DNA of 11,059 nucleotides. It comes from Candidatus Tectimicrobiota bacterium (GTDB taxonomy: Bacteria; UBA8248; JACPRG01). The stretch lies in the NCBI GenBank assembly GCA_016190025.1, contig JACPRG010000073.1, forward strand, positions 1 to 11,059, in the 5' to 3' direction. Below are positions 1,421-10,245 of this stretch, piece after piece. The position numbers and the translations under genes were made by a program. How positions within the stretch are numbered: the stretch's first letter is position 1; every line of letters starts with the position of its first letter. The notes beneath the pieces are model-generated. The model worked only from the letters and a program-made list of their open reading frames with translations, was not told the DNA's origin and ran no database searches.

Positions 1421-1426
1421 GAGGAG
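1421..1426 (+). promoter_or_regulatory. ribosome binding site that decides the GTG start
   Basis: GAGGAG lies 8 bases before the GTG at 1435. It supports starting the peroxiredoxin-like protein here, upstream of the in-frame TGA. The TTG at 1600 has no such site nearby. Confidence 0.7.
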
Positions 1427-1434
1427 ATTCATCC

Positions 1435-1923
1435 GTGGCAAGACAAGGCTCCCGAATCCTGGATTCCGGAGACGCGTTTCCGGAAATGGAAATGAACCTG
1501 GCCGGCGGCGGAAAGATGAAGATCCCCTCCGGCCTGGGGAACGACTGGAAGGTGATCCTGTTCTACCGGGGTCACTTCTGACCCTTCTGCAAGGCGCAGT
1601 TGAGCGCCTTCGAGAAGGCCGGCAAGCTCAAAGAGGAAGGAATCCGCGTCGCGGCCGCCTCTTCCGACACCCTGGAGAAGGCCCGGCAGTCGGTGGAGGA
1701 ATGGGGTGTGACCTTCCCCCTGGGATACGGCCTGGACCCGGCGGCCACGGCCGAGAAGACCGGGGCCTTCTACGACGCGAACCAGAAGATCATCCACTCC
1801 ACCGGATTCGTCCTGCGTCCGAACAACACGGTCGCCGTCGCGGCCTACAGCACCGGCCCCATCGGCCGCCTGATGTGGCAGGACGTCCTCGCGCTGGTTC
1901 AGTTCTACAAAAAGCAGGGATAA
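1435..1923 (+). CDS. selenocysteine-containing peroxiredoxin-like (AhpC/TSA family) protein
   Basis: This is a thioredoxin-fold peroxiredoxin-like protein of 162 aa if the in-frame TGA at 1579-1581 is read as selenocysteine (residue 49). Before the TGA the frame encodes a normal N-terminus (GDAFPEMEM at 12-20, then WKVILFYRGHF at 38-48). After it come PFCKAQLSAF and a full C-terminal half with typical elements such as GVTFPLGYGLD and STGFVLRPN. Family members read FYRG-x-W-C-P-[FY]-C at this point, so Sec replaces the catalytic Cys and gives a U-P-F-C (UxxC) redox motif with C52 as the likely resolving residue. A SECIS-like hairpin follows at 1583-1618. Expected role is thiol-dependent reduction of peroxides or disulfides in the cytoplasm; no signal peptide is seen. 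A GAGGAG site precedes the GTG. The alternative, a pseudogene with a nonsense mutation, is unlikely because homology is intact on both sides and the stop hits exactly the catalytic Cys codon. Confidence 0.9.
1583..1618 (+). promoter_or_regulatory. bacterial SECIS element (selenocysteine insertion hairpin)
   Basis: Immediately after the TGA, AAGGCGC (1591-1597) pairs perfectly with GCGCCTT (1604-1610) around a 6-nt loop AGTTGA. Below a 2x2 internal loop, a further six base pairs form (CCTTCT 1583-1588 with AGAAGG 1613-1618). The loop has G at its second position followed by U, and that G is 17 nt beyond the TGA. Known bacterial SECIS elements lie inside the coding region just downstream of UGA and carry a conserved loop G for SelB binding, at a comparable distance. 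Pairing is seen directly; SelB recognition is inferred. Confidence 0.8.
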
Positions 1924-1943: not shown

Positions 1944-1979
1944 GTCGGCCCCCCGTGGGGGGCCGGCTTTTTCTTTTTT
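1944..1979 (+). terminator. strong rho-independent terminator, probably bidirectional
   Basis: An 11-bp, almost all G:C stem (1944-1954 with 1957-1967, one G-T wobble) is followed by TTTTTCTTTTTT (1968-1979). It ends the selenoprotein transcript 20 bp after its stop. Read on the minus strand the same hairpin is followed by CCTTTTCCC, so it may also stop the convergent lyase transcript that ends at 1999. Confidence 0.9.
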
Positions 1980-4879: not shown

Positions 4880-5158
4880 CTATCGAACCGCCTCGATCTC
4901 CTTGGCGAGATTGACGTCCCGCTCCGTGAGGCCGCCCGCGTCGTGGGACGTGAGGACCAGGCGCACCCGCTTGTACCGGATGTCGATGTCCGGGTGATGG
5001 TCGTAGCGCTCGGCCAAAAGGGCCACCTTCGTCACAAACCCCATGGCCGGGGTGAACCACTCGAACTGAAACGTTTTGACGATGGCCTCCCCCTGCCGCT
5101 CCCAGCCGGGCAACTCCTCCAACCCCCGTCCAATCTCCTCTTCCGTCAGCCTGGCCAT
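4880..5158 (-). CDS. phhB: pterin-4a-carbinolamine dehydratase (PCD/DCoH)
   Basis: This 92-aa enzyme dehydrates 4a-hydroxytetrahydrobiopterin, recycling the pterin cofactor of aromatic amino acid hydroxylases. In bacteria lacking these hydroxylases, family members have been linked to molybdopterin metabolism. The full PCD signature is present: E50, H54-H55-P56, Y62, H72 and D81 with the usual spacings. Length is close to the family's usual 95-105 aa. The ATG has GGGAGGG seven bases upstream. It lies 33 bp after the E2 gene, so it is very likely co-transcribed with the dehydrogenase genes. No phenylalanine hydroxylase gene is in the window, which leaves its physiological partner open. Confidence 0.93.
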   Translation of the reverse strand: MARLTEEEIGRGLEELPGWERQGEAIVKTFQFEWFTPAMGFVTKVALLAERYDHHPDIDIRYKRVRLVLTSHDAGGLTERDVNLAKEIEAVR

Positions 5159-8691: not shown

Positions 8692-10245
8692 CTAGCGCGG
8701 GCCGGCCGAATCCCACTTTTTCTTCTTGGACTTCAGCGGCCGCCAGTGGGCGACCAGCTCCGCAAACAGACGCACGCCGACGCCCGACGCCCCTTTGGGG
8801 GTGTAAGGCAGGTCCCCGTCGCGCCAGGCGGGACCGGCGATGTCCAGGTGCGCCCAGGGAAAGTCCTCGGCGAACCGGGCCAGGAAAGCCGCCGCGGTGA
8901 TGGCCCCGCCCCACCGGCCTCCGGTGTTCTTGATGTCGGCGATGTCGCTCTTGAGCAGGTCGAAGTACTCCTTCCACAGGGGGAGCTCCCACACCCGGTC
9001 GCCCGACCGCCCGGCCGCCTCCTTGAGCCGGCCGATGAGCTCTTCCGAATTGCCCAGCAGACCGGAGCAGGACTCCCCCAGGGCCACGACGCACGCCCCC
9101 GTCAGGGTGGCCGCATCCAGCACCGCCTGCGGCCTGTACCGCCGGGCGTACGCCAGGGCGTCACACAGGATCAGCCTTCCCTCGGCGTCCGTGTTGTCGA
9201 TCTCGATGGTGATCCCCGCCATGGATGCGACCACGTCTCCCGGCCGGTTGGCCTTGCCGCTGATCATGTTCTCCGTGCAGGGGAGGAGGGCCACGACCCG
9301 CTGGGGCAGCCTCAGCTCGGCGATGGCCCGCATGGCGCCCAGGACGGCGGCCGCGCCGGACATGTCCGTCTTCATCGTCCGCATGCCGCCGGAGGACTTG
9401 ATGTCCAGCCCGCCCGAGTCGAAGGTGACGCCCTTGCCGAGCAGGGCGATGGGCGCCGCGTCCTTGTTCCGTCCGGGATAGTCCAGGACGATGAACTTGG
9501 GGGGCGAGGCGCTGGCCTGCGCCACGCTGAGGTAGGCCCGCATCCCCAGCTTCTCCGCGTCGCGGGCCTCCAGGACCCGGCAGGTCATCCCGTACTTCCG
9601 CGCCAGGGACCTGGCGGCGCCCGCCAGATAAGCGGGCACGGCGACGTTGGCCGGCTGGGTCACCAGGTCGCGGGCGAAATTGGTGGCCTCTCCCAGGACC
9701 CATCCCCGCCGGGTCCCCCGCTGGAGGGCGGCGGCCTCTTCCCGGTCTTGGGCCACGAGAACCAGGGACCGGACATCCCCCGACTTTCCACCTTCGTCCT
9801 TTTTCCGGTAGGCGTCCATGCGGTACAGGCCCATGACGGCGCCTTCCATCCAGGCCTGGGCCTGGATGTCCGCCGCAGCGGGCAGCGCCGCCCCTGGGAT
9901 CTCGGCGTGGAAGGAGTCGAGTTTCAGGTCCAGGGCGGCTTGCGCCGCCGCCGCCGCCACGCCCCGCAGGACGTCCGCCGTGAGGCCGTCGGCCTCCCCC
10001 ATCCCCACCAAGAGAAGCCGCTTGGGGCGCACGCCTTTCGGCGAGTGCAGGAGGGGGATCAGCCGGCGCTGTCGGGGCTCCAGGCGGAACTCGCCGCCGT
10101 CGATCATCCGCTGAATGGCCCCCTTCAGGGCGGCGTCAGCTTGCCGGGCGCTGCCCCGAAGGGGCGTTTTCCCCTGGTAGACCGGGAGAACGGCCAGCTC
10201 GCATTCAGTCTCCAGAAGCCTTCCGACGATGACCCTTCCGCGCAC
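8692..10245 (-). CDS. pepA: leucyl aminopeptidase, peptidase family M17
   Basis: This cytosolic two-metal aminopeptidase releases N-terminal residues from peptides. The 517-aa length fits the family (about 500). The C-terminal catalytic domain carries all expected residues: K271 and D276 in GKGVTFDSGG (270-279), catalytic K283, D294 in KTDMSGAAA (292-300), and D353, E355 and R357 in NTDAEGR (351-357, the M17 signature). The N-terminal half is the less conserved macro-like domain. The C-terminus has a Lys-rich tail (KSKKKK, 505-510). The GTG start has AAGGAGA seven bases upstream. It lies 15 bp after ubiX and 14 bp before the E1-alpha start, so it is embedded in the operon. E. coli PepA also binds DNA, but nothing here shows this. 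Confidence 0.95.
   Translation of the reverse strand: MRGRVIVGRLLETECELAVLPVYQGKTPLRGSARQADAALKGAIQRMIDGGEFRLEPRQRRLIPLLHSPKGVRPKRLLLVGMGEADGLTADVLRGVAAAAAQAALDLKLDSFHAEIPGAALPAAADIQAQAWMEGAVMGLYRMDAYRKKDEGGKSGDVRSLVLVAQDREEAAALQRGTRRGWVLGEATNFARDLVTQPANVAVPAYLAGAARSLARKYGMTCRVLEARDAEKLGMRAYLSVAQASASPPKFIVLDYPGRNKDAAPIALLGKGVTFDSGGLDIKSSGGMRTMKTDMSGAAAVLGAMRAIAELRLPQRVVALLPCTENMISGKANRPGDVVASMAGITIEIDNTDAEGRLILCDALAYARRYRPQAVLDAATLTGACVVALGESCSGLLGNSEELIGRLKEAAGRSGDRVWELPLWKEYFDLLKSDIADIKNTGGRWGGAITAAAFLARFAEDFPWAHLDIAGPAWRDGDLPYTPKGASGVGVRLFAELVAHWRPLKSKKKKWDSAGPR

Follow-up and report, generated by a model that had tools for sequence, protein, structure and literature searches.

A peroxiredoxin-like gene of a Candidatus Tectimicrobiota bacterium with a probable selenocysteine codon at its active site

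Contig JACPRG010000073.1 of a Candidatus Tectimicrobiota assembly (GCA_016190025.1) carries, in the 11,059 nucleotides (nt) analysed here as a whole (the window), a forward-strand gene at 1435-1923 whose frame is interrupted by a TGA at 1579-1581. This codon very probably encodes selenocysteine (Sec) at the active site of a peroxiredoxin (Prx)-like redox protein; we put the probability of that reading, which concerns the identity of the residue and not the catalytic cycle, at roughly 0.93. An initial annotation, made from the letters of the window, had proposed Sec, and the proposal is now supported by TGA at the same site across the family, by a hairpin of the bacterial selenocysteine insertion sequence (bSECIS) type, by a codon held fixed in the loop of that hairpin, and by Sec machinery in most of the searched genomes whose copy of the gene carries TGA. 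Prx-like selenoproteins with a UxxC motif have been known for about twenty years, and the window gene is a new member of a kind already catalogued.

Reading frame and features

Read directly, positions 1435-1923 form a single open frame broken solely by the TGA: 48 codons from the GTG at 1435, the TGA itself, 113 further codons, and a TAA at 1921-1923. Translation with TGA as Sec gives 162 residues, with Sec49 in the motif U-P-F-C and Cys52 as the sole Cys of the protein. The features that bear on the argument are as follows.

1422-1426, forward strand: ribosome-binding site AGGAG, 8 nt ahead of the GTG (direct reading)
1435-1923, forward strand: whole putative selenoprotein gene, GTG to TAA, 162 residues with Sec49 (translation, Pfam, alignments A1 and A4)
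1579-1581, forward strand: probable Sec codon UGA, residue 49 and position 1 of U-P-F-C (codons of relatives, phylum search)
1582-1618, forward strand: bSECIS-type hairpin (folding; related hairpin in relatives)
1588-1590, forward strand: codon of Cys52, the proposed partner of Sec49 (translation, alignments)
1600-1602, forward strand: Leu56 codon TTG in the SECIS loop, also the start of a short open reading frame (ORF) (codon counts, database starts)
1600-1923, forward strand: short 107-residue ORF, filed as P0002, without the active site (ORF listing, protein search)
1946-1979, forward strand: terminator-like hairpin with T-rich tail directly after the TAA (by eye; stem 1950-1962 listed)

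The read-through product matches Pfam AhpC-TSA (PF00578) over residues 12-134 (1.6e-14, 54.4 bits against a gathering threshold of 26) and Pfam Redoxin at 3.9e-9, which together with the direct reading bears out the earlier claim of a frame intact on both sides of the TGA, with its ribosome-binding site, its GTG and 48 and 113 flanking residues. The same annotation had foreseen that gene calling would yield either a fragment lacking the active site or a pseudogene call, and P0002 has been filed as such a fragment, from the TTG at 1600. That 107-residue ORF gave no Pfam family at E 0.001, and Rfam at its gathering thresholds gave no match anywhere in the window.

Genetic codes in which UGA is read as Trp or Gly exist in some uncultured bacteria, and a recoding of this sort might be supposed for the present genome. 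However, among the other 11 listed frames of the window nine stop at TGA and two at TAG, so TGA is not a sense codon throughout; moreover every Cys-type row of the alignments has Cys at this residue, and a SECIS-type hairpin is present. We regard recoding to another amino acid as exceedingly improbable.

Relatives and the codon for residue 49

A search of the protein collection gave 70 matches, 19 of them of 167-183 residues and 51 short (89-120 residues, P0002 included). All 19 full-length proteins (identity 46-52% for 18, 32% for the other) have Cys at the site, and in every one the TGA position falls on the first Cys of a CxxC motif, the outcome to be expected of the alignment with Cys homologues that had been suggested as a check. 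The short relatives tell a different part of the story: 39 of the 48 rows aligned in A2 start at the residue of the TTG at 1600.

When genomes were scanned with A2, the best 80 of 83 matches gave 79 loci, and in the 77 of these where the codon for residue 49 could be read it was TGA in 63 (Sec-type) and TGC or TGT in 14 (Cys-type), a share biased upward because A2 consists of truncated, mostly Sec-type proteins. Because of this bias, one phylum was searched with the alignment A4 (38 Sec and 18 Cys rows). The gene was found in 19 of 95 genomes of Rokubacteria/Methylomirabilota type (phylum labels, here and for the Nitrospinota/Tectomicrobia-type and delta-proteobacterial groups below, are a reading of locus titles), and the full-length matches carry TGA in 19 of 19, one of them with two TGA codons; a twentieth match is partial and begins behind the site. 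Of these 19 genomes, eleven were known beforehand from Sec loci and eight were new. Across the 56 alignment rows the residues P16, R45 and R145 are invariant. No relatives were found in viral contigs (58 stretches) or in a first genome scan with P0001 alone as query (127 stretches), and plasmids gave 45 records, every one below 60% identity.

The SECIS-type hairpin and its loop codon

RNA folding places directly behind the TGA the hairpin CCUUCU-GC-AAGGCGC-[AGUUGA]-GCGCCUU-CG-AGAAGG, in which a lower stem pairs 1583-1588 with 1613-1618 and an upper stem 1591-1597 with 1604-1610, and the loop AGUUGA (1598-1603) begins 16 nt after the UGA. The limits for bSECIS elements given in the legend of Figure 2 of a 2026 review are a hairpin 16-37 nt downstream, a G in the first two loop positions and a minimum free energy of at most -7.5 (PMC13188914). 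The window hairpin, with its loop at 16 nt and -21.9 kcal/mol, lies within all of them, and among 200 synonymous-codon versions of the sequence only one folded equally well (z -2.52).

Among relatives, 77 Sec sites were scored, made up of 63 first copies (the window included) and 14 second copies; 61 satisfy the bSECIS model. The mean folding z is -0.87 at Sec sites and -0.04 at Cys sites, and since z -1 is reached at only 32 of 77 Sec sites and 1 of 14 Cys sites, most single sites prove nothing. In a set of 40 Sec genes a six-pair consensus stem has 90% of its cells paired, as compared with a shuffle mean of 74.3%, and 39 cells changed on both sides, as compared with 12.5, neither value being reached in 500 shuffles; no slide of the register brings the stem above 52.1% paired. 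RNAalifold, unprompted, recovered five of the six consensus pairs. Covariation favours the stem on three of five measures, which we count as support, not proof.

A stronger signal comes from the choice of codon in the loop. At position 56, 49 of the 63 Sec genes have TTG or TTA (a codon for a residue other than Leu stands there in three), a form taken by 63 of the 536 downstream Leu codons of the same genes (12%) and by codon 56 in 3 of the 14 Cys genes. These counts also bear on a rival account, that the 107-residue protein from the TTG at 1600 is genuine and the part upstream a separate or dead frame. In its favour are the many short relatives filed with that same start. Against this, Pfam gives no match for the short form, in which the first strands of the fold are missing along with the active site, the upstream residues P16 and R45 are invariant in the alignment, and the TTG is accounted for by the SECIS loop; a genuine short protein is highly improbable.

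In two Cys-type genes (L046 at 1496 and L060 at 3917) the SECIS-loop position reads CAG-TTG, which may be what is left of a former SECIS.

Selenocysteine machinery in the genomes of relatives

The machinery was sought in 50 genomes, those of 50 of the 79 loci; 40 of these genomes carry the Sec form and 10 the Cys form. SelA was over its cut-off in 35 of 40 Sec-type and 4 of 10 Cys-type genomes (p 0.004), SelB in 33 of 40 and 4 of 10 (p 0.012), and a tRNA-Sec of at least 65 bits in 31 of 40 and 4 of 10 (p 0.048), the p values treating genomes as independent. The 65-bit line follows a gap in the scores and was drawn after these had been seen; it was adopted because 5 of 14 control genomes passed the RF01852 cut-off of 47 bits. 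The tRNA-Sec search scored only 67 candidates per genome and can miss. One genome (G003) has the tRNA-Sec but lacks SelA and SelB. Judged by title, the Sec-type genomes are draft metagenome-assembled genomes, and the isolate genomes among the 50 all belong to the Cys group. Of the 95 Rokubacteria/Methylomirabilota-type genomes, 83 have SelA over the cut-off: 16 of the 19 that carry the gene and 67 of the 76 that do not. With SelA so common either way, its co-occurrence there is uninformative.

Weighing the selenocysteine reading

An unrooted tree was computed from 75 rows (53 Sec, 22 Cys; near-duplicate loci omitted). On it the Sec and Cys labels change at least four times (shuffled mean 19.4), the starred branches alone forcing two changes. 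The window and a clade of metagenomic Cys proteins sit together inside a group of 42 Sec and 10 Cys rows (86/99), which suggests that the Cys clade may have reverted from Sec, though an unrooted tree gives no direction.

Several results weigh against Sec in the window gene. The window groups as sister to that Cys clade (97/83*), a placement compatible with an event confined to the window. The machinery searches concern the genomes of relatives and not the window's own, and one Sec-type genome (G005, 2.3 Mb) yielded neither SelA nor SelB nor a strong tRNA-Sec, SelD not having been searched. The bSECIS model, satisfied at 4 of 14 Cys sites, is missed at 16 of 77 Sec sites; seven of these, all of them first copies in Nitrospinota-type loci, lack such a hairpin, and the other nine have the loop at 16 nt with energies of only -4.8 to -7.4. 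The 40 genes of the covariation set were chosen from the 63 first-copy Sec sites after the hairpins had been seen, for a loop at 16 nt, a choice that favours the Sec reading and kept only L015 of the Nitrospinota-type first copies. The window stem is itself shifted by one base (a loop of 6, not 5), so that one of its six consensus cells is paired. Finally, pairs with two-sided change number 4 as compared with 3.4 in shuffles (225 of 500 as high) and further pair types 8 as compared with 8.7 (431 of 500); covariation falls short of proof because these two failing measures are the ones that relatedness misleads least.

The placement of the window beside a Cys clade is also what one would point to in arguing that the gene is a pseudogene or contains a sequencing error, the TGA having arisen by nonsense mutation or by the misreading of a Cys codon, with a fragment as the sole product; from TGC or TGT to TGA is a change of one base. 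Yet 63 of 77 relatives and all 19 full-length matches in the phylum searched have the same codon, no second stop interrupts the frame on either side of it, and the hairpin is unusually stable for the protein sequence encoded there, as the comparison with synonymous versions indicates. We consider an inactive or misread gene very unlikely, and Sec at residue 49 is preferred.

Active site and proposed mechanism

The window protein is predicted to have the peroxiredoxin fold. Aligned with solved peroxiredoxins (6q5v, 7kuu), its residue 49 falls on the catalytic Thr and Cys52 on the peroxidatic Cys. The canonical peroxiredoxin motif is PxxxTxxC, and its Pro, Thr and Cys positions are occupied here by R45, U49 and C52, so the protein departs from the canonical form. 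R145 aligns with an Arg of 6q5v, which we take to be the conserved active-site Arg of peroxiredoxins. The initial annotation had put the TGA at the catalytic Cys of U-P-F-C: this holds in that it is the first Cys of the family's CxxC, and fails in that the position aligns with Thr and not with the canonical peroxidatic residue. With Sec49 at the Thr position and Cys52 at that of the peroxidatic Cys, the product may be described as a hybrid UxxC redoxin. No N-terminal hydrophobic stretch is seen by eye, and the gene product is probably a cytoplasmic Prx-like selenoprotein with a U-x-x-C active site.

By the established bacterial pathway, SelB with Sec-tRNA(Sec) would decode the UGA as Sec under the guidance of the loop that begins 16 nt behind it. 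Sec49 and Cys52 would then form a redox pair, with the invariant Arg145 at the conserved Prx position; one of the two would attack the substrate, a peroxide or a disulfide, after which an intramolecular selenenylsulfide between Sec49 and Cys52 would form, and a thioredoxin-type reductant would restore the pair. We favour Sec49 as the attacking residue, in what would be a thiol-dependent peroxidase or reductase.

This last step has a competitor which leaves Sec itself untouched, namely that catalysis follows the canonical peroxiredoxin scheme, with Cys52 peroxidatic and Sec49 only resolving. The alignment of Cys52 with the peroxidatic Cys of both solved structures, and that of Arg145, speak for it. 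On the other side the Pro and Thr of the motif have been replaced by Arg45 and Sec49, the first Cys of the CxxC of ResA (2h1b) aligns with U49, and selenium usually sits on the attacking residue. A canonical cycle seems rather unlikely, and Sec49 as the attacker remains our choice.

Relation to known families

Proteins of this kind appear in several surveys: a Sargasso Sea study describes a Prx-like selenoprotein with UXXC replacing TXXU (PMC1088965), a 2006 survey a Prx-like thiol:disulfide oxidoreductase in Syntrophus, Desulfotalea and Geobacter (PMC1794560), and the Global Ocean Sampling (GOS) study a "Prx-like 1" group within pfam00578 with UxxC and 225 sequences (PMC2398784), while the 2026 review places the Prx-like UxxC selenoprotein under "predicted with high confidence" (PMC13188914). 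It is because such pfam00578 UxxC selenoproteins are already listed that the window gene is assigned to a known kind. Prx-like 1 (UxxC or UxxU; reference sequence WP_010940744.1, a Geobacter sulfurreducens protein) resembles the window protein in two features, the Pfam family and UxxC; no tested feature separates the two, and the relatives include a Syntrophaceae locus (L033).

Other families stand further off. The Sec form of peroxiredoxin, with the motif PxxxTxxU according to the review (PMC13188914), has the fold and conserved Arg in common with the window protein. In TxxU proteins, however, Sec is peroxidatic and lies behind the Thr, whereas in the window protein Sec takes the place of the Thr and Cys that of the peroxidatic residue, and the corresponding model PrxU (NF040737) scores 17.8 bits against a cut-off of 270. 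The SelL-related model NF040769 shows weak similarity over residues 14-93 (24.5 bits, cut-off 120). ResA/TlpA oxidoreductases share the position of the CxxC (profile match to 2h1b, 4.4e-13). Those proteins are membrane-tethered or exported, whereas in the window protein no hydrophobic stretch is seen by eye at the N-terminus; it also carries an Arg where peroxiredoxins have their conserved one.

No NCBIfam model is over its cut-off for the window protein or for nine relatives tested (six Sec-type, three Cys-type), so NCBIfam alone would not name the gene a selenoprotein. Searches confined to an open library of literature turned up no account of the Prx-like UxxC family in Rokubacteria or Nitrospinae. 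The family tends to escape standard annotation, its database entries often being short fragments, as the 51 short proteins among 70 matches and the shared start at the SECIS-loop TTG indicate; surveys of selenium use or oxidative defence in uncultured lineages like Rokubacteria and Nitrospinota would overlook the active form if they relied on gene calls of this kind. The relatives collected in this analysis would be enough to build a model that recognises the family, and allow a direct comparison of Sec and Cys at the Thr-equivalent site of peroxiredoxins. It is possible, though we hold the idea tentatively, that they form a distinct, mainly Sec-based subfamily across many phyla, without a NCBIfam model of its own, in which selenium stands where peroxiredoxins have their catalytic Thr, with the peroxidatic Cys and the Arg kept, giving a catalysis between peroxiredoxin and TlpA types; the Nitrospinota-type tandem duplicates, some combining UxxC with UxxU, and a single hairpin that may serve two UGA codons 9 nt apart would belong to the same picture.

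Tandem copies

Thirteen loci (L001-L010, L012, L015 and L016, with titles of Nitrospinota, Tectomicrobia or simply "bacterium") contain a second Sec redoxin, its TGA 519-668 nt behind the first (in L001, for example, at 5145 and 5798), and L029 (600) also holds a copy of the second type. Six of these 14 second copies have the motif UPYU, with two TGA codons 9 nt apart, and one CUCCC-GGGC-GGGAG hairpin which fits both, at spacings of 34 and (counted by hand) 25 nt. Separately, L011 has two consecutive TGA codons at 2291-2296 (H-TGA-TGA-P) where relatives have Trp and then Sec, either an assembly error or a double recoding.

Neighbouring genes

The terminator-like hairpin behind the redoxin gene is weak evidence, because the window holds two such sites against 1.0 (standard deviation 1.0) in shuffles. 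Comparing all flanking ORFs with one another revealed no neighbour that many loci share with the window. Upstream, at 1-1304, lies a pair of genes on the same strand whose frames overlap at 699-702. The latter of the two (699-1304) is similar to phosphonopyruvate or sulfopyruvate decarboxylase, though it stays under the curated cut-offs shown, and the former looks by eye like its N-terminal partner. Downstream, on the reverse strand at 1999-2844, is a gene like PEP (phosphoenolpyruvate) mutase or methylisocitrate lyase (Pfam PEP_mutase, 1.7e-66); a PEP-mutase-like gene occurs near the redoxin in the window and in four loci (L038, L042, L048 and L079), a weak association.

A leucyl-aminopeptidase-like protein, named by eye, is encoded on the reverse strand at 8692-10245. 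Long matches to it are found at 40-48% identity in 17 of 18 Nitrospinota/Tectomicrobia-type genomes, and at no more than 50% in 82 of 95 Rokubacteria/Methylomirabilota-type and 114 of 247 delta-proteobacterial genomes (top score 463 bits in the latter), with short pieces reaching 53-59%. As the protein is at most 50% identical over long matches in three phyla, the lineage of the window lies far from the genomes searched.
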